Positions 22,268-56,279 of a stretch of DNA of 64,000 bases are shown here, one piece after another. The position numbers and the translations under genes are program-made. The stretch's first letter is position 1; each line of letters begins with the position of its first letter. The notes beneath the pieces were generated by a model. That model searched no databases. It saw nothing but the letters and a program-made list of their open reading frames with translations, and had not been told where the DNA came from. The stretch comes from Blepharisma japonicum (Eukaryota; Ciliophora; Heterotrichea; Heterotrichida; Blepharismidae). The stretch covers positions 62,001-126,000 of the forward strand of contig CATKHK010000108.1 in NCBI GenBank assembly GCA_949751835.1, written 5' to 3'.

Positions 22268-22765
22268 CTAAACGACTGGGTCTTCAATCTCCAAGCATTT
22301 AACTTCTTGCTGGAATTTTTCTTGCTCCTCTGGTGTTAAATCGTTTTCAAGGCCAAAGATACTTCTGATCTCATCTGGAGTCTTCCCATCAATCATAGAA
22401 GCTATTTTTGCTCCGCATAGGTCAATTAATGGCTTAATGTCTAAGTAGTTGGAAGCTGAGAGAAGTTCTAAAACAATTTCAGGTCGTAGCTTTATGAATT
22501 CAGCGTCCCAAGGTGGTAAAGCCTCGTCAATAGCGTCAGCTTTTAGTGGTTTTTCAATTTCTAGAGCTGGAGAATCTTTGTAGTGGCAAAGATATTCAAT
22601 GACTTTTTCTAAGATTGGCCCTCTGACGTTAGGAAGTGGGATTTCTTCTTCAGTCCCAGAGTCTTCCACGACACTTTTGATGAGTTGTGATTGGAGAGCT
22701 GTTCCTACTTCCACTTCAAAAATCTGGTCTTCTTTGCTCTTCAGCTTAAGCTTAGTTTCAGCCAT
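22268..22765 (-). CDS. SKP1: Skp1-like SCF ubiquitin-ligase adaptor, copy 1 (divergent C-terminus)
   Basis: A 165-residue Skp1: BTB/POZ-like N-terminal half (KLKLKSKEDQIFEVE, PLPNVRGPILEKVIEYL) and the C-terminal F-box-binding helices (PPWDAEF, ASNYLDIKPLIDLCGAKIA, GKTPDEIRSIFGLENDLT). The normally conserved end 'EENKWAE' is replaced by QEVKCLEIEDPVV, so F-box selectivity may differ. Known role: linking F-box proteins to cullin-1. A tandem paralog lies 149 bp upstream. Confidence 0.93.
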   Translation of the reverse strand: MAETKLKLKSKEDQIFEVEVGTALQSQLIKSVVEDSGTEEEIPLPNVRGPILEKVIEYLCHYKDSPALEIEKPLKADAIDEALPPWDAEFIKLRPEIVLELLSASNYLDIKPLIDLCGAKIASMIDGKTPDEIRSIFGLENDLTPEEQEKFQQEVKCLEIEDPVV

Positions 22766-22914: not shown

Positions 22915-23400
22915 TTATTCCATCTCAGCCCATTTATTTTCTTCTCTCACTTGTGCTTCCTCTTCAGGGGTGAAGTCGTTTTCAATATTAAACGTTCTTC
23001 TTATCTCTTCTGGTGTTTTTCCTTTCAGCATGGACGCAATTTTAGCACAGCACAGGTCTAGTAAAGACTTTATGTCCAAATAATTTGCGGCTAAAATAAG
23101 TTCAAAGAGAATCTCATGCTCAAGCTCAACAAAGGCAGCGTCCCAAGCTGGCACGACTTCTTGCATAACAGCAGATTTGAGAGGTTTTTCGATTTCTGGG
23201 GGAACAGAATCCTTATAGTGTCTGGCGTATTCGATCACTTTTTCAAGGATCGCAGCTTTTACGTTTGGTAGTGGTATTTCTTCATCAGTGCCTGAGTCTT
23301 CGACCATGTTTTTGATGAGCTGAGACTTGCAGGCGACACTTTCTTCTACTTCGAAGGTTTGGCCTTCTTGAGATTGGAGCTTAAGTTTGACTTCAGCCAT
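22915..23400 (-). CDS. SKP1: Skp1 SCF ubiquitin-ligase adaptor, copy 2
   Basis: A 161-residue, full-length Skp1 with the canonical tail (FTPEEEAQVREENKWAEME). Core features: LKLQSQEGQTFEVEESVA, PLPNVKAAILEKVIEYARHY, VPAWDAAF, AANYLDIKSLLDLCCAKIA and GKTPEEIRRTFNIENDF. Of the five Skp1-like genes in the window this is the most conventional, so it is the best candidate for the housekeeping copy. It has no intron. Confidence 0.95.
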   Translation of the reverse strand: MAEVKLKLQSQEGQTFEVEESVACKSQLIKNMVEDSGTDEEIPLPNVKAAILEKVIEYARHYKDSVPPEIEKPLKSAVMQEVVPAWDAAFVELEHEILFELILAANYLDIKSLLDLCCAKIASMLKGKTPEEIRRTFNIENDFTPEEEAQVREENKWAEME

Positions 23401-34950: not shown

Positions 34951-35436
34951 ATGGATAAAGAGATAATTAAGTTGAGAAGCCAGGATGGTCAAATCTTTGA
35001 AGTTGAAGAATCAGTAGCTTTTAAATCCCCAGTTATTAAAAACATAGCTGAAGGATTTGATGAAAAGGAAGAAATCCTGTTACCAAAAATAAAAGCAACT
35101 GTTGTTGAAAAAGTAATCCAATACATGAGACATTATAAAGACTTAGACCCTCCAGAAATTGAAAAACCTTTGAAAACTGCTTTTTTGGAAGAAATTCTCC
35201 CAGCTTGAGATGTTGATTTTATTAATCTTGAACTAGAAATGATATATGAGCTCGTTCTTGCAGCAAATTTTCTAGCTATAAGTTCATTGTTGGAGTTATC
35301 GTGTGCAAAAATCGCATCCATGATTAAAGGTAAAAGTGTAGAAGAACTTAGAACCACATTTCATATTGAGAATGATCTCACAGCTGAAGAAGAAGCACAA
35401 ATAAGAGAAGAGAATAGATGGGCTGAATTGGAATAA
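34951..35436 (+). CDS. SKP1: Skp1-like adaptor, copy 3
   Basis: A 161-residue Skp1 with TGA for the conserved Trp in ILPAWDVDF. Features: KLRSQDGQIFEVEESVAF, KIKATVVEKVIQYMRHY, AANFLAISSLLELSCAKIA, and a canonical tail (EEEAQIREENRWAELE). It is first of three tandem plus-strand copies, spaced 101 bp from the next, and is distinct from the minus-strand pair 12 kb away (shorter acidic loop: AEGFDEKEE in place of VEDSGTDEE). Confidence 0.93.
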
Positions 35437-35537: not shown

Positions 35538-36017
35538 ATGGAGGAAGAGAAAATTATATTGAGAAGCCAGGAAGGCCAAATCTTTGAAGTTGAAGAATCA
35601 GTAGCTTTCAAATCCCCAGTTCTTAAAAACATGATTGAAGGATTTGATGGAAAAGAAGAAATTGCGTTAGAAATAAGAGCAGCTGTTCTGCAAAAAATAG
35701 TCCTATACATGAAACATTATAAAGACTTAGACCCTCCAAAAATTGAAAAACCTTTGAGAGCTACAATAGAAGAAATTCTCCCTGCTTGGGATGCTGATTT
35801 TATTAATCTTGAGCATGAAATGCTATTTGAGCTCACCATTGGAGCAAGTTTTCTAGCTATAAATCCATTGCTGGATTTAACAAATGCCAAAATTGCATCT
35901 TTGATAAAAGGTAAAACACCAGAAGAAATTAAAAGTATATTTAATATTAAAGATGATTTCACAGCCGAAGAAGAAGCACAAATAAGAGAAGAAAATAAAT
36001 GGGTTGAGTTTGAATAA
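35538..36017 (+). CDS. SKP1: Skp1-like adaptor, copy 4
   Basis: A 159-residue Skp1: ILRSQEGQIFEVEESVAF, EIRAAVLQKIVLYMKHY, PAWDADF, ASFLAINPLLDLTNAKIA, GKTPEEIKSIFNIKDDF, EENKWVEFE. The Pro-Leu-Pro loop of other copies is shortened to ALEIRAA. There are no TGA codons. It shares long identical DNA blocks with copies 3 and 5, indicating recent tandem duplication. Confidence 0.93.
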   Translation: MEEEKIILRSQEGQIFEVEESVAFKSPVLKNMIEGFDGKEEIALEIRAAVLQKIVLYMKHYKDLDPPKIEKPLRATIEEILPAWDADFINLEHEMLFELTIGASFLAINPLLDLTNAKIASLIKGKTPEEIKSIFNIKDDFTAEEEAQIREENKWVEFE

Positions 36018-36086
36018 ATTAGCCTTTCAAATCTTCATTTCTTTTATTAGATGTTGAATTCTACAAAAATAAGTAATTTAATAACT

Positions 36087-36686
36087 ATGGAAGAAGAGAA
36101 AATTAAGTTGAGAAGCCAAGAAGGCCAAATCTTTGAAATTGAAGGATCGACAGCTTTTAAATCCCCAGTTCTTAAAAACATGATTGAAGGGTTTGATGGA
36201 AAAGAAGAAATTGCGTTAGAAATAAGAGCAGCTGTTCTTGAAAAAATAATAATATACATGGAACATTATAAGGATATAGACCCTCCAAAAATTGAAAAAC
36301 CTTTTAAATCTGATCGTCTGGAAAAAATTCTTCCTGCTTGGGAAATTGATTTTATTAATCTTGAGCCTGAAATATTACTTGAGCTCATAAATAAAGCAGA
36401 TTTTCTAAAGCAAGATCCTAGAAGCAATTTATTAAATAATGAATTTATACTATTAATAAAACGATTTTTTATTTCCATAACTCTGAAATTTCATATTAAA
36501 ATTTATTTATTATACAAATGAGTAGCTATAACTCCATTGGTGGAATTATCGGGTGCAAAAATCGCATACTTGATTGATGGTAAAACAGCAGAGGAACTTC
36601 GAAGCATATTTCATATTGAGAATAATCTCACAGCTGAATTAGAAGCGGAATTTAACGAGGAAATTAAAGGTCTTGAAATCATCTAA
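36087..36686 (+). CDS. SKP1: Skp1-like adaptor, copy 5, with 39-codon in-frame insertion
   Basis: A 199-residue frame. The start is taken at MEEEKIKL, as in copy 4; an upstream ATG at 36051 adds 12 residues without family support. The N-terminal BTB half is normal. Between FL and AITPLVELSGAKIA, where paralogs read FLAI continuously, 117 bp are inserted in frame (see the separate entry), adding 39 codons. After it the Skp1 sequence resumes (GKTAEELRSIFHIENNLT) but the tail EEIKGLEII has lost the usual EENxW ending. The insertion would disrupt an F-box-contacting helix, so the product is probably altered or non-functional unless the insert is removed. Confidence 0.75.
36408..36524 (+). mobile_element. 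117-bp TA-bounded insertion (candidate retained IES)
   Basis: Paralogs read ttttcta-gctataa without interruption. Copy 5 has ttttcTA, then 115 bp of very AT-rich DNA, then TA-gctataa: an insertion flanked by TA on both sides, exactly the mark of ciliate internal eliminated sequences. The length is a multiple of three and carries no TAA/TAG in frame, so the gene stays open. No terminal inverted repeat is obvious by eye. It is neither a GT-AG intron nor of intron size. Calling it an IES is inference. Confidence 0.6.
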
Positions 36687-37569
36687 TTTTAAAAATAACA
36701 AAACTTTACTTGGTTATCACGTCTTCAGTCTTTAGATGCTAGATTTCCTATCATTAGTGAGCAAAGCATACTTAAATATGATTTCTCTGCCTGAAGCTGG
36801 CCTCCAAGCCAGCTAGCCTTAAGTAAGCAAATCGACGATATCGTCGAAATAAATTTCTCTAAGAACTGACATATGATTAGCAAAAACAGGCTTAAGGAAT
36901 CTTCAATTATTTATAAATACAAAGAAAAGATTTTTGCTTCCAGGCTCTTTTAATTTTCTAATATAATTTCTTTCAATAAATTTAAAAAGAATTTTTTGTT
37001 TTACTTTTAATTAACCATTTTATGATTATTATAACTCCTTCAAACTCTTATAATTCAAATCAAACTTGAAGTACTGGATTCTGGATAGCCCAATATATAT
37101 TTCTCCTTTATTATATGAACAATGCACTTAATAAGGATAACCCTTGCATGCTAAAATTATTATTTGTCTCCAATTCATGCCACTTTAATTTCGCTTTCAT
37201 AGATTGATCCTCTGCATTCAATCAAATACAGTCTATCTGCATTTATCAAGTTCTTTCATTTACCTGCTGTAAACTTATTTTCTAAGTAAATCGCAAAAAA
37301 TTCTTGTTAAGAAAATAATAATCAATATTTTTTTCGATTTTATCTAAATTGTATAAATCTTTCTTTGCAAGAAAAAGTTTACGATTGGCAGTAGAGTTGG
37401 CCCAAAATTCATGAATACTAGCGTTACATAGTAAATATTTTTTTGTTAATAATTTGCTGCTAAGATGCAATATAAACATTTTATATAACCAAGTCAATCT
37501 GAAATAGATCACAATCGATTTATTTAAATTAGTTTTTTAGTAAATTTCAATAGATTTCTGTTATAATAT
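36687..37569. other. 883-bp intergenic region with hairpins
   Basis: AT-rich spacer between the Skp1 cluster and the p62-like gene. It contains a GC-richer patch at about 36790-36850 with two inverted repeats, listed separately. No convincing gene. Confidence 0.4.
36795..36847. repeat. Two adjacent inverted repeats
   Basis: A 7-bp stem (AGCTGGC / GCCAGCT, 6-nt loop) at 36795-36814 lies just before a perfect 16-bp palindrome TCGACGATATCGTCGA at 36832-36847. Both stand out in otherwise AT-rich spacer DNA. Possible uses: protein-binding site, structured RNA end, or remnant. Confidence 0.6.
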
Positions 37570-38820
37570 ATGACGATTCTCAAGCTTCTTTTAGGCGAAG
37601 AAATCAGACGAGTTGGAAAAGCACCAGAGACCATTAACGAAGTAAAATCCAGGACATCAAGAATATTCGGCATTGAAGACCCTTCATTTCGATATAAAGA
37701 TGAAGATGGGGATTTAATCACAATTCAGACACAAGAAGAGTACCAAGATGCACTGAAATTGTGCGCTGGGACTATCAAGCTTGAAGTTCTGGATTCGCAA
37801 GTGCTTTTAATGAAAAGATCTACTTTTATGATGAGTTCTTTTACATCAACTCCTTCTGATACACTTAATGCTGAATCTATGGAGAGATCTCTCAAACATT
37901 TAAATAGAACAGCAGAAATTCAAAAAGGAGAAACAGAAAAATATGAAGCTGTAAATACAAATTATTCAGTGAATATACAAACTGAATCAATTATATTTAA
38001 AGAAGACTCTACTGAGACTTCAATTACAATGGATAAAGGCTCAGATGCCATATTTATGAGTGATTTTTCGACTCAATGCGAATATAATACAATTGCAGAT
38101 TTCCAGGATTTTCTGAGAGAAATTATAGGAAATAATTTACCTAAGCCTGGAATTAGGGTTAAAAATAATTTGTGCTCGGCTTGTGGGCTTCAGATACGTG
38201 GAGTAAAATATGAGTGCAAATTTTGTAATATAAACATGTGCGAAATTTGTGAAAAAAGCACTGAGCATATGCATCCTCTGTTAAAAATAAAGCCTTCAGA
38301 AGCTTTTGTTCCTATAAAGCCTATTGAAGCTCATCAAAAAAAGCCAATTAACATAGAGTACATTCAATCCAAAAAACCTATAGATGCAGAGTTTGTCCGA
38401 ACAAAAAAACCAATAGACCTAGATACTGTTCCCAACAAAATTCCGACAGAAACTCATAAGCCTCTTAAAAAGCCTATAGAAATCGAAAATTTCTCTCAAG
38501 ATGACTTTGCTGAGGCTGTACAGACTAGAAAGCCTCTTGAATCAGGCTCCAATAATACCTTTGCAGCTTTATCTAAAAAAATTCCAGAAGAAGCCAAAAA
38601 ATATATAAAAGAATCTCCTCAAAAAGACCCCGAAGAAAACTACGTTGTACTTGGCAGAGATTGTAAAGAAACTCCACGAGGACATCGTGAAAACTTATCC
38701 GAACTAATAAAAAAACTAAGAGTAATGGGCTTTAATGACGAAAATAAATCAGTAGCAGCACTCATTAAAGCTAATTATGTTATGGAAATAGCAACAGAAT
38801 TTTTATTAGACCAAACGTAA
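37570..38820 (+). CDS. p62/NBR1-like selective autophagy receptor (PB1-ZZ-LIR-UBA)
   Basis: A 416-residue protein with four modules in the order of p62/NBR1. PB1 at about 1-80 (KLLLGEEIRR, YKDEDGDLITI). ZZ zinc finger at about 201-245 (CSACGLQIRGVKYECKFC, CEIC, H-H). A candidate LIR near 355-361 (EENYVVL, acidic then Tyr-x-x-Leu). UBA at about 376-415 (LIKKLRVMGFND ... NYVMEIATEFLLD). Between ZZ and LIR lie repeated 'KKPI' motifs (IQSKKPIDAEFVRTKKPID). By family it binds ubiquitinated cargo and links it to Atg8. Its 3' end was duplicated with that of the next gene. Confidence 0.9.
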   Translation: MTILKLLLGEEIRRVGKAPETINEVKSRTSRIFGIEDPSFRYKDEDGDLITIQTQEEYQDALKLCAGTIKLEVLDSQVLLMKRSTFMMSSFTSTPSDTLNAESMERSLKHLNRTAEIQKGETEKYEAVNTNYSVNIQTESIIFKEDSTETSITMDKGSDAIFMSDFSTQCEYNTIADFQDFLREIIGNNLPKPGIRVKNNLCSACGLQIRGVKYECKFCNINMCEICEKSTEHMHPLLKIKPSEAFVPIKPIEAHQKKPINIEYIQSKKPIDAEFVRTKKPIDLDTVPNKIPTETHKPLKKPIEIENFSQDDFAEAVQTRKPLESGSNNTFAALSKKIPEEAKKYIKESPQKDPEENYVVLGRDCKETPRGHRENLSELIKKLRVMGFNDENKSVAALIKANYVMEIATEFLLDQT

Positions 38821-39310
38821 TTAATATTTTGTTCTTAAATTGTCTAAAATAACGAATTCATGATTTTTGAAGCGTGCTTTATACCAATATTGCATAATTA
38901 AAAATGGGTCTATGCCATTGATATTTCTAACTCTTTCTTGAGAAACCATATACAGGGCTCCTCCGAATTCTTTTTATTAGTAAAAACTATTGAATTTTGG
39001 TTTGGCTGCTTCAATATTTTCTTAAGAATGGACTATAAGTAAAATAGGCTGAATATGGTTGTTTAAGGTTTTAAATATGCAAATGGAATCTGTCATATAT
39101 AAAAATAGCCTATTAGGAATTTTTTCATTGCTTAGTTTATGTAATGCCTAACGGCTCACATAATAAAGTCACATATAAAGATTCTTTACTAAAAGCAGGT
39201 CGAGAAAAATTGCATGTAAGAACACTGATAGGAATTTGATGCTCGTTAGAATTTATTGATATTAAACTATATTATAATTTTAAGCTCCTCTATTTGCTTT
39301 ATTATTTCTC
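38821..39310 (-). pseudogene. Decayed partial copy of the M3 peptidase 3' end
   Basis: This DNA matches the 3' part of the intact peptidase gene (39599 to about 40490) with scattered substitutions and at least two internal deletions: the match skips from ...gagaaaccatatacagggct to ctcctccgaattc, and again around aatgcctaacggctc. It has no usable frame. It arose by tandem duplication with the neighbouring autophagy-gene tail copy and has since decayed. Confidence 0.85.
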
Positions 39311-39510
39311 TATTGATTCTCTAATTATCAAAAATATGTTTACCTAATAAATTCTGGATGCAAAAATATAAGGTATTAAGCGTCCGACCTATGCATATTA
39401 ACTATTCTCCTCTTCTTAGCTCCATTGGAATGAATCTCAGCCATTAAATAAGAGTTCATATTGGGAATGGTCTAAGTACCTCACCCTTTTGAATTTTTGA
39501 CTAATCGACA
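39311..39510. other. Sequence between the two decayed copies
   Basis: About 200 bp without visible similarity to either intact gene. It could be peptidase sequence that has decayed beyond recognition or inserted DNA at the duplication junction. Confidence 0.35.
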
Positions 39511-39598
39511 TTAATGACGAAAATAAATCAGTAGCAGCACTCATTAAGCTAATTATGTTATGGAAATAGCAACAAGATTTTTATTAGACCAACCTTAA
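39511..39598 (+). pseudogene. Decayed copy of the p62-like gene 3' end (UBA tail)
   Basis: Nearly identical to 38732-38820, the last 28 codons and stop of the p62-like gene, with a one-base deletion (cattaagct for cattaaagct) and a few substitutions. It is orphaned from the rest of the gene. It abuts the stop codon of the intact peptidase gene, preserving the ancestral arrangement in which the two convergent stops touched. Confidence 0.88.
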
Positions 39599-41689
39599 TT
39601 AATATTTTGATCTCAAATCGTCTAAAATAACTAATTCATGATCTTTAAAATGTGTTCTGTACCAATGCTGCATAATTAAAAATGGGTCAATATCATTGAT
39701 ATTTGTAACTCCTTCTTGAGAAACCATATATGGAGCTAATATATTTCCAATTTGGGTCTTCCCAGGCTCACTTCCTCCCTTTATTAATAAATGCTTATAC
39801 AATAAATTTCCAGCCTCTGCATTTATTGCTGATTTTTTAAACGCAGTTTCCCAGATAACTGCAGATAAAGCATTATCCAGCACATAAGTGTAATAAGAGC
39901 TGCCATATTCTGCTAAATGATGCAAATTGCAGTACCAGTCTCCTCCGAATTCTTTGGTTTCGAAAAAATTATTGAATTTTTGTAAGGCTGCTTCAATGTT
40001 TTCTTCAGAATGGATTAGTAAGTCAAATAAAGAAAATGATAATTGGATGTGGTTTTTTAAAGCTTTAAATATATAAATGGAATCTGTCATGTATAAAAAT
40101 AGCTCATTAGGAATTTTCTCATTGCTTTGCTTGTGTAATGCTCAGCGGCTTACATAATTATAGTCTGTAACAAATTTTTCAAAAATATGTGAAGGGATTT
40201 CTGCTAAATCTAGAGGGACTCTTGTCCCAGAAAATGCTTGAAATTCGCTTTGGCTAACAAGGGAGTGAATTGAATGGCCTAGTTCATGGAAAAGTTCTAT
40301 TAAATTGTTATAATTAATCCCCTGATTTTTAAAATCATCTAAAGCTACATATAAGGATTCTTTACTAAAAGCAGGTCGAGCAAAATTGCATGAAAGAACA
40401 CTGATAGGAATTTGATGCTCATTAGAATTTATTGAAACTTTTTTAGGGCAAACTATATTATAATTTGATGCTCCTCTATTTGCTTTATTATTTCTTTGGA
40501 ATAAATCCATATACAAATACCCAATTAATGCTCCATTTTTAGAAAATGTTAATTTCACTATATCATTTGACCAAGCTTCATCAGTATTTGCCATACAAAT
40601 TTCAATGCTAATGCCAAACAAGCTTGAGCATAAATCTTTAATTCCTTCAAAAATGTTAAAAAATGTAAAAAAATTTTCATCATTATAATGTTTAGTAAAA
40701 TTTTTTATTTTTTGTGTTTTTATTTCATCAATATATCTTTGAGAATAATAAGAAATATCTCAGCCTTCTAGTTTGACTGGATTTTTTCTTGAAATTTGTT
40801 CATTTAACGCTTTTCTGTCAAGGATAATGTCATACTCGTTTTTTAGCTTTGGCTCAAGATATCCATGACAGCCTACCAAATTTTCTATTAGTTCTTTTAC
40901 ATTTCCTGGGAACATTTTATATTGCATGGAATATTCTGCGAAATTTTCAAAGCCTAAAGAGTTTGCTAGCTGCTTTCTTTCGCTAATAAGACTATTTAAG
41001 ACTGGCTTATTTGCTAAATTTACATTTCCGCTAGCTCTTCATGCCCTTTCTCTAATTTTAGAGCTTTCTGAATGATTTACAATAGATAATAAGTCTTCTT
41101 TGTCATATTCAACTTCTATTAAATCATCGTATTTATCCCCTTGCCGTTCTGGTCTCAAATTCATAGGAATTGATTCAATCTCTTCAAAGGCAAACAAAAG
41201 TTTTGCTTTAGAAATATCAATGTTATTTAAATATTGTGATTGAAGTTTCAGTATGTTTAAACTGTGATCTTTTACAATAGAATCAGTTAAATGAGTCCCT
41301 TCTTTTTCAAATTCTTTTAAAAGAGAAATTGCAAAAAGTTGTTGAGATTGTGAAAGTGATGGGAAAAGAAAAGAATTTTTAAGAGAGAGAAGAGAATCAT
41401 AGAGCCCATGATCTTTATTAAGTTCATCAAATAGTATAAACATTTGGTTTGTGACTGTATCAGAGGCTTCTTTTCAGGCTTCATGAGGAAATAGATCTGA
41501 AATAGCTTGGCTTATGTCCCCTGTCAATGAAGATAAATTAGAAATTTCATCAAGATCATAGAGCTGCTCTAAGCAAGGTGGTCGAGATTTAATTAGAGAT
41601 TGAAGTCTTTGGATTTCATGAGAATTTTGTTGGAATAAAAAGAGTAAATCTGAAGCTGCCTTTAAATAAGGTAAGCCAAATTTACCCAT
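39599..41689 (-). CDS. M3-family metallopeptidase, mitochondrial-intermediate-peptidase-like
   Basis: A 696-residue peptidase with several TGA=Trp. The zinc motif is HELGHSIH at about 468-475, followed by SGTRVPLDLAEIPSH, the M3 pattern HExGHxxH ... GTR ... E. N-terminal segments (LYDLDEISNLSSLTGDIS) and the overall order fit mitochondrial intermediate peptidase more than thimet oligopeptidase. MIP trims an octapeptide from some imported proteins. However, the first ATG starts directly at the mature-like GKFGLPYLKAASD and is preceded by in-frame TAA codons, so no presequence is visible; the protein may be cytosolic or have an unusual signal. Confidence 0.9.
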
Positions 41690-46449: not shown

Positions 46450-46974
46450 ATGATATTAAATAAAAGTCAAAACAGAATTGTAATAAGACCTACAAGTTTC
46501 ATGGGCGAAGACAACCGGCGAAGAAGATCCTGTGTATCTGTCACAAAAATCATGCATATCCAAAGGAAAAGTGACTCCCAACATTTAGCACTTCCAAAAA
46601 TAACCAACCCTCGACTACGGCTTGGCTCATTAAATTCTTCACTGGACTCTACCGAAGTTTCTTCACCAATTCAAAAATCCTGCACAGAAAAATATATCAT
46701 GTTGGGACAAGTCCCAACGATAAAACAAGGAATTGACAAAATTATTGAGGAATGTGACAATTATGATCCTATGAACAAAACCATTCTAATGAATGAAATT
46801 ACTAGAAGTGAAGCAGAAATAAAAGAAGTTATGAAAGAACTTAAAAAGCTAGATTTGCCAGATATTAGGAAAAATTGAAAGAAAAAAAATCCTAATGAAG
46901 TTTGCATTAAGAGAAAAGACATGAAGAAAATTATAGCAGGACTGAGAAGAGAAATTAAGCTTGGCTATGAATAA
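46450..46974 (+). CDS. Unrecognised basic protein, 174 residues
   Basis: Ser/Arg-rich N-terminus (GEDNRRRRSCVSVTK) then a helical, charged C-terminal half (about 95-174), with one TGA=Trp (RKNWKKKN). The first ATG is used; a second at 46504 (MGEDN) would remove 18 residues. No family recognised. It is divergent from the NDUFA9-like gene, 36 bp between starts. Confidence 0.65.
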
Positions 46975-47268
46975 AAGGAGAAAGGAAAAAGTGATATTTT
47001 AAAAATTTAAATTTTGTGAAATTTTGAGGTTGAAATGAAACCGATATGAAAAATTTTACAAAATTTAAGAAATAATTTAAATAAATTTAAAACAAATGAC
47101 TTTTTTTTACTCAATAAAAACAGAACAGTTTTAGAAAATAATTCTTGAAAAATAGATTGAATTTTTTCTAACAGAAACATAATTATTCGTCATAAAAGAG
47201 CATTTTATGCACAATTTCACCTTAAATTTTTTAATTTTAATTATATTCTGCTGTTTCATATATAAATT
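46975..47268. other. 294-bp AT-rich intergenic region
   Basis: Homopolymer-rich spacer before the WW/SelW-fold gene. Nothing recognised. Confidence 0.35.
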
Positions 47269-52860: not shown

Positions 52861-53325
52861 ATGATAATTGCTAAAAATGGAAAATGCATTCAGAAGAGAT
52901 CAGATATAATAAAAATCAAGGTAAAAACCCCCAAAAATTCGGATGACAAGAAAGACCCTGGCAAATGTAAGAAAAAAATCGGCCACCGTTATAATCGTTT
53001 ACCATGAAAAAATGCCAGACTTGGCTACCATAAGCATGATTCAAACAAATACGAAAGAAATTACTGATACCATAATGGTCCAAAAAATACATCTAGAAGC
53101 TATGATGGTAATAAAATTTCTGCATTATTTGAAGAAATAAAGGAAAACATAAAATCCCTTGAAAACTTGGACAAAATTTTGAATAAAAAGCATGATGGCT
53201 CAATAAAAAAAGTAACTCCCAGCAAAAAATTTGATTTTGATGAGTATTCAAAGTCATATTTAAAAGTAGCAAATATGGAAGAGGTTTACAATGCAATCTA
53301 CTTATGCCAATCCACAGATTTTTAA
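52861..53325 (+). CDS. Small basic protein family, member 2 (altered N-terminus)
   Basis: A 154-residue frame with TGA=Trp in LPWKNAR and NYWYHN. C-terminal signature: PSKKFDFDEYSKSYLK ... YNAIYLCQSTDF. The usual family start is ATG-GA-CAG... giving M(D/E)xxxFRQKRSE; here the matching ATG (52877) is followed by a short deletion that puts it out of frame, and the frame is opened instead by an ATG 16 bp upstream (MIIAKNGKCIQKRSDII). The QKRSDII motif is kept, so the protein is probably still made with a replaced first eight residues. Confidence 0.65.
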
Positions 53326-54137
53326 TGTTTTTACAAGGATTGATTAATATATTGATAGAAAAGTGACATTATAGATATTTAATAAGCATAATTATTAGAC
53401 TTTATTAATTTGATAATGCTTAAAAACGGTTCTTCTGCATAAAATTTGGGGATATAGTTTATATTGCTAAAAGTATATTATTTGTGCTTGCCAGAAAGTA
53501 AGATATTATTAAGAACCATATTTTACGGATGAATCGATAACTTAATATATCCAATAAAGTGTTTTATACCTATTATTATAATAAATCAATCATAATAGTA
53601 AGATTAACTGGAATATATCCAATCTACTTAGGCCAATTATATGGAGGCTATATCATTTTTCTATTGAAATACTATAATTCCAAAGTAAAATATCAATAAA
53701 TTCCAAAAGTCAAGAAATAAATTCCAAAGACTCGAATTATAAGCGTCACACGAATAATCCTTATAAAATTTATAAGAGAGGTTTTGTATAAATCATTATA
53801 TGATATTTTAAAAAAATCAAAGAAGCATAAATATCAAGTCAAAACTCTTTAGGAAATCATGAAATATATGAAGATTGTAAAATTCCTTAATTTCAAATAA
53901 TATGCAATTATATGTTTTCATTCTATAATTGCAAACTGGCCTTTATTTTTGTAAAATAAAAGTAATTCAATTCAACTCTTATATGATTTAATTTTTATAT
54001 TTTCTTTTACTTATATAGAATAACTAAATGCAATCTTCTATATATTAGTGTCAGAATTAATACAGTCTCATACAATAATAACCTAAATTATTTAATTTTA
54101 TTATTTTTTATAAATTATATTTAATAAGCAGAACAAT
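53326..54137. other. 812-bp AT-rich intergenic region
   Basis: No open frame with family or other similarity and no RNA gene recognised. Very A/T-rich with many short runs. Confidence 0.4.
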
Positions 54138-54584
54138 ATGGATCAGCAGATATTTAAGCAGAAGAGATCGGAAATAATTAAAGACAAAAAGATTAAAAAG
54201 CCAAAAAATATTAAAAAGAAAGATTTTAGAAATAGTAAACATAATCGAGCATATGACAACTTTACACCATGAAATAAGCTTCGTGTTAGATATCATAATA
54301 ATGATGATTGGTATTACGACCTAAAATGATTATGCCCTAAAGGCCCGAATAATACATATAGAAACTATCAAATGAAAATCTCAAAATTACATGTTGAAAT
54401 TGAAGAAAAAAATAATTCTCTTGAAAAATTTTATGAGATTCTTGATAATAGGCATGGCACTATAAAATCAATAGTTCCTAATAAAAAATTCAATTTTTCT
54501 AAATATTTGAAACAATATTTGAACTCTGCGGCTATAAAGGATGTTAGCTATGCATTTTATTTATGCTATTTAACGGATTTTTAA
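54138..54584 (+). CDS. Small basic protein family, member 3
   Basis: A 148-residue protein with the full family layout: MDQQIFKQKRSEIIKDKK start, Lys-rich segment, central RYHNNDDWYYD, then LEKFYEILDNRHGTIK, VPNKKFNFSKYLKQYLNS and YAFYLCYLTDF. Two TGA=Trp codons (FTPWNK, LKWLCP). Function unknown. Confidence 0.78.
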
Positions 54585-55046
54585 TGATTAGCCAATTATT
54601 ATAAAATTTAAGTGACTATATACTTTTTAGGTACTTAATTCTATTAGCTCTAAAGGACTTAGCTGTTTGAGGTTTATTTAAATTTAACTTATGTAAAGAT
54701 ATTTAATCACAACTGCACCCTCCTTAATAAGAATAACTCCTAAAGCTATCAGCTCAACATTAAAGCATTTATCAAAAAAATAGTCGATATAGTATATGCT
54801 AGAATATTATTATTGAAATAAGCAGCATTTCAGGGTTGTGATTTTATATCCTCAGTTATAGATTAGCAATACCATCTATGCTGTTGGACTTTAGATTTTA
54901 TAAATAATTTTCTAATGTCCTATTTAAAGGCTAATTGATAATTTATAAAAATTGGACTATAATTACAGCAATAATTAATATAAATATTTTCTATATAAAT
55001 CAAAATAAATTTATGTTTAAGAAACTTCCATAAGAAGAATATAAAT
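54585..55046. other. 462-bp AT-rich intergenic region
   Basis: Spacer within the small-protein array. No feature recognised. Confidence 0.4.
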
Positions 55047-55493
55047 ATGGAGCAGCATGCATTTAGGCAGAAGAGGTCAGAAATACTAAAAATCAGCAAA
55101 ACTAAAAAGTCAAAAAGCATAAAAAAATATCCTAAAATTAGAAAAATAAAGTGTCAAAGGGATTTTCGTTTTACTAAAAGAAAAAAAATTCGACTTGACT
55201 ATCATAATAATCATATAGGATACTGATGGGAATCATGGCGTCATAATGGCCCAAACTATACATCGAGTAGCTATGATCGAAAGAAAATTTATATGCTACT
55301 TTATACATTAGATAAAAAGGCTAAGTCTCTTGAAAAGTATTATGAAATTCTTGATAAAAAGCATGGCTCGAAAAAGCTGGCCGTTCTTAATAAAAAATTC
55401 AATTTTCCTAAATATTCAAAAAAATATCTTAATCTTGCTGGGCTAAAAGACGTTAATTATGCGTGTTACTTATTTAATTCAATAGATTTATAA
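55047..55493 (+). CDS. Small basic protein family, member 4
   Basis: A 148-residue protein: MEQHAFRQKRSEILKISK, Lys/Arg-rich segment, YHNNHIGYWWESWRHNGPN with TGA=Trp, LEKYYEILDKKHGSKK, LNKKFNFPKYSKKYLN, YACYLFNSIDL. The centre 'RHNGPNYTSSSYDRKKI' is close to member 2's 'YHNGPKNTSRSYDGNKI', so members 2 and 4 are closest there. Function unknown. Confidence 0.78.
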
Positions 55494-55823
55494 TGAATTT
55501 ACTATTTTGAAGATGCTTTGATTACCTATTAGTGTAATTTTACTGCTATGGTATTACAAATTAATCTTTTACACAGAACATCATAAATGAACATAAAATT
55601 TTTTTAAAATATTATTTAAATTTACTTATCAATGAATATTAATTATACATTTTACTTATAGATTAATACTAAAATTATTAATAATTATTTTATCTTTTTC
55701 AAAAAGCCATTACAAGTAAAATCATTATAAATTGCTTTTCTTATTAATGATGGAAATAAAGTATAAGTAATATAATTTGAAGAAAAGAAACGATTTTTAT
55801 CAAAATTAAAATTAGCTATAAAT
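55494..55823. other. 330-bp AT-rich intergenic region
   Basis: Spacer within the small-protein array. No feature recognised. Confidence 0.4.
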
Positions 55824-56279
55824 ATGGATCGGCATCAATTTAGGCAGAAAAGATCAGAAATAATAAAACTGAAGTGAAACAAAAAGCCTAAATGCAAAAA
55901 GGAGACAGAGCCTAAAATTCCTAAAATAAAATTTTTAACGACTAGTAACTTGGCTTTGGGTAATGAAGTTCGGCTGAAATCTCATAATTATCAATATAGG
56001 TATTACAATGACTTATTATTTTATAGCTATTCAGATTCAGATGCTCCATTGAGCAGTGGAAATCAAGAGGAAGTTGCTATAGTAAATACTAACCCAAACG
56101 AAAATGAAAAATTAGTCAAAATATCTAATGAAATTCTTAGCAAAGAGCATAAGTATGTGAAACCTGTTGTTCCGAATAAAAAAATCAATTTTTGCAATTA
56201 TTCAAAAATAAACCTAAATCAAGTCTCTATGAAAGAAGTTAATTATGCGTCTTTTTTATGCTGTACAATGGATTTCTAA
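55824..56279 (+). CDS. Small basic protein family, member 5
   Basis: A 151-residue protein: MDRHQFRQKRSEIIKLKW (Trp as TGA), Lys-rich segment, a more acidic, Ser-rich centre (YSYSDSDAPLSSGNQEE), then SNEILSKEHKY, VPNKKINFCNYSKINLNQ, NYASFLCCTMDF. The two ends are conserved and the middle is very different from other members, suggesting that the middle diverges fast. Function unknown. Confidence 0.78.

Follow-up and report, generated by a model that had tools for sequence, protein, structure and literature searches.

Skp1-like genes occur on both strands of the DNA analysed here (the window; 64,000 nucleotides, corresponding to bases 62001-126000 of contig C108), and one of them, gene C, contains an AT-rich block of 117 bp by which it differs from its paralogs. 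The coordinates of the genes and of the block are collected in Table 1. Genome-wide searches were carried out over the assembly of 45,185,585 bases in 224 contigs. Gene C was aligned with 12 other Skp1-like copies of this assembly, namely A, B, D, E, F and seven more divergent copies; a further Pfam match on contig C2 (2.0e-5) lies outside the alignment.

Table 1. Skp1-like genes of the window, with a paralog on a second contig, and features of the block in gene C.
Feature	Position	Strand	Remarks
Skp1-like gene C	36087..36686	+	199 aa including the block; longest ORF from 36051
AT-rich block in gene C	36408..36524	+	117 bp, 39 codons, open with TGA read as Trp
Left TA of boundary direct repeat	36406..36407	+	
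Right TA of boundary direct repeat	36523..36524	+	final 2 bases of the block
In-frame TGA within block	36519..36521	+	read as Trp
Skp1-like paralog A	34951..35436	+	continuous, without block
Skp1-like paralog B	35538..36017	+	continuous, without block
Skp1-like paralog D	22268..22765	-	continuous; C-terminal tail like that of gene C
Skp1-like paralog E	22915..23400	-	continuous; best Pfam Skp1 domain match together with F
Skp1-like paralog F	contig C77		without block; best Pfam Skp1 domain match together with E

Both domains of the SKP1 family (Pfam PF03931 and PF01466) are present in gene C above the cut-off (Skp1_POZ, 1.6e-11; Skp1, 4.8e-10), the Skp1 domain being far weaker than in A and B (6e-24, 8.8e-23). 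Gene C departs from the family in having 39 extra residues between helices and a D-like tail instead of the Trp-bearing C-terminal tail. The C-terminal motif ENxW is common to A, B, E and F and is absent from C (36600-36686) and D (22268-22400). In the literature library searched, no paper joined Skp1 with Blepharisma.

The insertion in gene C is real, in frame and bounded by TA, and of the aligned Skp1-like copies only gene C has it. The earlier note had placed an extra AT-rich block at 36408-36524, which was confirmed with a GC content of 0.179, and had described four paralogs as continuous at the site; this was borne out and widened, the block being missing from all 12 of the other aligned copies. 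The junction in A and B reads TTTTC-TA-GCTATAA and is the same as gene C minus 117 bp. Removal of the 117 bases in silico, with one TA kept, gave TTTTCTAGCTATAA, as in A and B, and made the gene continuous again, in agreement with the claim that TA stands on both sides and that one TA would be left. Three equivalent positions are available for the exact placement of the block, and the repeat TA is common to all of them. The reading frame is kept, as had also been claimed, since the length is 3n and the block contains a single TGA, read as Trp, and neither TAA nor TAG.

In the protein, the block begins after ...ADFL and ends before AITPL; when gene C is aligned with the top SKP1 chains of solved structure, the alignment is interrupted there as well (query 107 and 145). 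Going by known SKP1 structures, we place this site in the turn that joins the helix ending in ...ANYL to the one that begins with DIKxL. The Skp1 domain downstream of the block is in phase and still recognisable.

Insertions were simulated by placing 117-mers of the window into coding positions, with 200,000 trials per source class. A TA-containing boundary repeat resulted in 2.6% of the simulated insertions with any source and in 3.9% of those with a source GC of 0.22 or less.

A GC content as low as that of the block was found in 2.7% of the 117-mers of the window, sampled every 13 bases. Among in-frame 117-mers of long ORFs, two of 1,162 had a GC content of 0.18 or less, the coding reference being 86 stop-free frames of at least 300 codons each. 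The frame of the block was open in 3.1% of 20,000 dinucleotide shuffles. Its codon-use score was no better than that of composition-matched open shuffles (p=0.37, 2,000 shuffles) and was equalled or exceeded by 52 of 56 AT-rich coding chunks; no Pfam match was obtained for the block. From its low GC, the lack of a codon-usage signature and its openness in 3.1% of the shuffles, the block looks like non-coding DNA that is open by chance rather than old protein sequence.

The earlier note had held that a match of the insert to a neighbouring genomic repeat without TA target preference would count against an internal eliminated sequence (IES). When the 45.2-Mb assembly was searched with the block, the sole match was the block itself, the search skipping genome-common words so that rarity of the block is unproven. 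Within the window, the best local alignments of the block did not outscore those of shuffled sequence (p 0.67 and 0.73, with 60 shuffles in each test). An RNA or structured element was rejected, there being no Rfam match at the gathering threshold in 36000-37000 and a single-strand DNA fold of z=0.13. A palindromic IES was rejected on the same fold value, which is not above shuffles, inverted arms being present in the block.

The genetic code of this DNA reads TGA as Trp, as is needed both by Skp1-like copy A and by the block, and the mean GC of the window is 0.32. The sequence CCCTAACA, reported as the telomere repeat of Blepharisma stoltei in an excerpt of PMC9942806, was found as a triplet in the assembly with 77 forward and 91 reverse matches, overlapping matches being counted; the reversed control of the triplet gave no matches in the assembly. 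Among the matches listed, the triplets lay on the + strand at low coordinates and on the - strand at high coordinates. The end sequence of BogoMITE, an element described as germline-limited in B. stoltei in the excerpted text of PMC9942856, had zero matches in the assembly; this end was taken from B. stoltei, and its absence is a sign of somatic DNA only in an assembly of that same species. The telomere repeats and the absence of BogoMITE ends suggest a somatic assembly in a Blepharisma-like setting.

The likeliest single reading of the block, about evenly poised between right and wrong, is that of a TA-targeted, IES-like insertion that is now retained in the soma. According to this reading, a germline TA site in one of the tandem Skp1-like copies would have received 117 bp of non-coding, AT-rich DNA, by a TA-targeted route as for ciliate IESs. 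The somatic genome would now keep the block, or lose it in a minority of copies only. Because the block is 3n in length and stopless with TGA read as Trp, gene C would be read straight through, and the protein would gain 39 residues, 21 of them hydrophobic, at the inter-helix turn. We infer the TA-targeted entry, the retention in most somatic copies and the translation of the block. An IES-like entry is favoured by the 12 of 12 copies without the block, the exact restoration of the junction, the TA repeat as set against 2.6-3.9% in the simulations, and the non-coding character of the block, and also by the in-phase domain downstream, the lack of an empty copy among the matches listed, the somatic-looking assembly, the lack of a repeat match in the searches made with the block and the partly excised sequences of the B. 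stoltei MAC (see below). It is disfavoured by the lack of a terminal inverted repeat (TIR), an off-peak length, low GC, the single 2-bp repeat on which the proposal of an IES-like origin mainly draws, and the weak Skp1 domain of gene C. The depletion of stopless 3n IESs in Paramecium exons (see below) also counts against it.

The earlier note had read the block as a candidate retained IES. Of that reading, the insertion, the TA boundaries, the open frame and the Blepharisma-like setting stood; the block was found to be without a TIR and to be present in a somatic-looking assembly. At the ends of the block 1 of 10 positions matches as inverted repeat, the mean in 1,543 AT-rich stretches of the window being 3.35. 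The block has the TA-containing terminal direct repeat of an IES, and its removal gives a continuous gene. An IES is also absent from most somatic DNA, and in the somatic-looking assembly gene C was seen in no form other than that with the block; for this reason the block was not filed as an IES.

The block was compared with the IESs of B. stoltei as they are described in excerpts of PMC9942856. A TA-containing repeat is given there for 30,212 of 39,799 IESs (76%), about 70% of the IESs are intragenic, and short IESs are largely nonrepetitive. The block is like the TA-bound IESs in that it is short and intragenic, has a TA direct repeat, restores the gene on removal and has no repeat match. 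It is unlike them in its occurrence in a somatic-looking assembly, in its GC (0.18 against a mean of 33.3%) and in having no TIR, TIRs being described as frequent, longer than chance and not universal. Its 117 bp stand just above the periodic range of IES lengths (65-115 bp) and away from the listed peaks of 110 and 153 bp.

Retention of IES-like DNA in somatic gene copies is known from Paramecium, where, in the available portions of PMC7606892, few IESs have a retention score above 0.1 (e.g. 87 of 9,504 in weakly expressed genes). The block resembles these retained IESs (PMC7606892 and PMC3464196, both in excerpt) in being IES-like DNA in a somatic gene copy. It is unlike them in that no other form was seen in the assembly and in being stopless and 3n, a class of IES reported as depleted in Paramecium exons in the part of PMC3464196 at hand. 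In B. stoltei, RVT_1 retroelement sequences in the MAC are partly excised as IESs (PMC9942856, in excerpt). The block is like these in lying in a somatic-looking assembly and being perhaps excised from part of the copies, and unlike them in its length of 117 bp, in having no repeat match and in its position inside a host gene. Because some retroelement loci are so excised, the block might itself be partly excised in somatic development, as an IES on its way to becoming protein. One germline gene would then give rise, in one polyploid nucleus, to a Skp1-like protein that has the 39 residues and another that lacks them; this we consider quite unlikely.

The main rival, next after an IES-like entry, is that unrelated AT-rich DNA was joined into a double-strand break, which may have arisen as tandem Skp1 copies recombined or underwent gene conversion, with the TA as coincidence or microhomology. 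This account is possible, and on balance doubtful. The lack of a TIR at the ends of the block is in its favor, as are the affinities of gene C on the two sides of the block. These were counted over informative sites, after removal of columns gapped in A, B, C, E or F and of those where C matched neither A nor B. Sites of gene C shared with B against A stood at 28:12 on the 5' side of the block and at 10:18 on its 3' side (Fisher p=0.007), and at sites polarised by E and F the ratio was 10:2 before and 4:7 after (p=0.036); the best break of the polarised sites fell at alignment columns 251-262 (p=0.026), the block being at column 324, but with all informative sites the best breakpoint was at columns 153-155, far upstream of the block (p=0.02), and all of these p-values are soft because linked sites were treated as independent. 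In the DNA search, B was the best match before the block (85%), and A was the sole listed non-self match after it (85%, 124 bases).

Against this rival, gene C has protein features in common with D on both sides of the block. For the 3' part of gene C the protein score was 153 with D, 143 with A and 138 with B, and PEI.LEL before the block is common to C and D. Gene C looks like a mosaic, with the 5' part nearest B, the 3' DNA nearest A and the C-terminal protein best against D. Since the 3' protein is best against D and PEI.LEL is shared with D, mosaicism in the array appears to be broader than one event. Against insertion by repair there is also the boundary repeat itself, simulated insertions having produced one that contains TA in so few cases, and no source copy of the block was found in the assembly by a search that skips very common words.

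Genes A, B and C evolve fast, the pairwise dN/dS being 0.49-0.81 before the block and 0.38-0.99 after it. Between E and F, 8 non-synonymous differences were counted before the block position and 0 after it, with 52 and 18 synonymous differences, respectively. In 7 of 18 tail codons the residue is changed in C while A and B agree; the high dN/dS of C versus A is not clean evidence of decay, because the tail of C resembles that of D. Among the positions after the block that are invariant in A, E and F, C has kept 23 of 38 versus 30 of 38 in B (p=0.13). In view of that p-value and the resemblance to D, we do not take the changed tail of C as proof of decay or of lost function.

An active, normally excised IES, of which the assembly kept the unexcised form, is unlikely. 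The true somatic gene would then be continuous, or both forms would exist and give two Skp1 proteins. The TA boundaries and the exact restoration of the paralog junction are consistent with such an IES, as are the recognisable, in-phase domain downstream and the partly excised sequences of the B. stoltei MAC mentioned above. In MAC-enriched DNA of B. stoltei, however, IESs are retained at a residual level of 0.02 or less according to the excerpted text of PMC9942856, so that a consensus should be without a normally excised IES. The prior for a stopless 3n block is about 1% (3.1% of shuffles open, times one third), and the depletion of such IESs in Paramecium exons points the same way. Among the matches listed, there was no further copy of gene C that lacks the block.

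That the block is an ordinary in-frame protein insertion with a coding history, such as an internal duplication of the Skp1 C-terminus, is very improbable. The open frame speaks for it, together with an FHIK/FHIE match between the block and the downstream Skp1 sequence and a reverse-strand DNA comparison against D (p=0.017); the latter, however, comes from a set of 20 DNA tests and concerns the wrong strand. On the plus strand the DNA comparisons gave p values of 0.077-0.71 (five C-terminal targets, two scorings), and the protein comparisons gave 0.18-0.76 over five C-terminal targets. Internal duplication was rejected, the FHIK/FHIE match being not above shuffles and the plus strand and protein comparisons being at chance level. 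The block is also without a Pfam match or a coding signature.

A spliceosomal intron is scarcely credible, for which AT-richness alone would speak: the sole GT in 36330-36530 is at 36522, so that a GT-AG intron spanning the block is excluded by the lack of a donor GT, and gene C has no GT..AG stretch of 15-16 nt, introns of B. stoltei being mostly 15 and 16 bp in the excerpt of PMC9942806.

Retention of an IES, if true, would mean that germline-limited junk DNA has turned coding by way of a recoded TGA and a 3n length, and that protein evolution, in a ciliate class that branched early, can draw on IESs whose excision has been lost. A plain repair insertion would be an ordinary curiosity of a fast-evolving tandem gene copy. 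The block has the look of germline DNA that would ordinarily be discarded and may instead have been left in the working genome, with or without effect on the cell.

Paralogous DNA of about 270 kb, consisting of the whole of C108, 60 kb each of C77 and C1 and five small loci, was surveyed for indels of at least 27 bp. Seven candidates were obtained; the flanks of one, of 556 bp, align poorly. A TA-containing repeat was present in two of the seven, the block in gene C and a 449-bp stretch at C1:43308-43756. The latter reads as a deletion, because the absence of the 449 bp fuses two tandem copies, and that the only other TA-containing repeat of the survey belongs to an apparent deletion counts against IES-like entry of the block. 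Seven indels are too few for a class-level claim on the recurrence of TA-bounded coding insertions.

At C1:41867 and C1:43308-43756 there are tandem gene copies, one seemingly fused by the 449-bp loss, with a boundary repeat of TATT. This loss could be due to microhomology or to IES-like removal of somatic sequence.

Within the window, 46451-47006 is a 556-bp stretch that is absent from a 76%-identical region of C77; its best placements are without a TA repeat and its flanks align poorly. The stretch 38720-39309 is an incomplete copy of part of the adjoining gene at 39599-41689 (- strand), with which it was compared over 39499-40495. The copy lacks about 205 and 182 bp at two internal sites, for which the best placements show no TA repeat; the gene itself is presumably an M3-type peptidase, by its HELGH motif. 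At 53001-56000 three consecutive kilobases have a GC of 0.24-0.25, well under the window mean.
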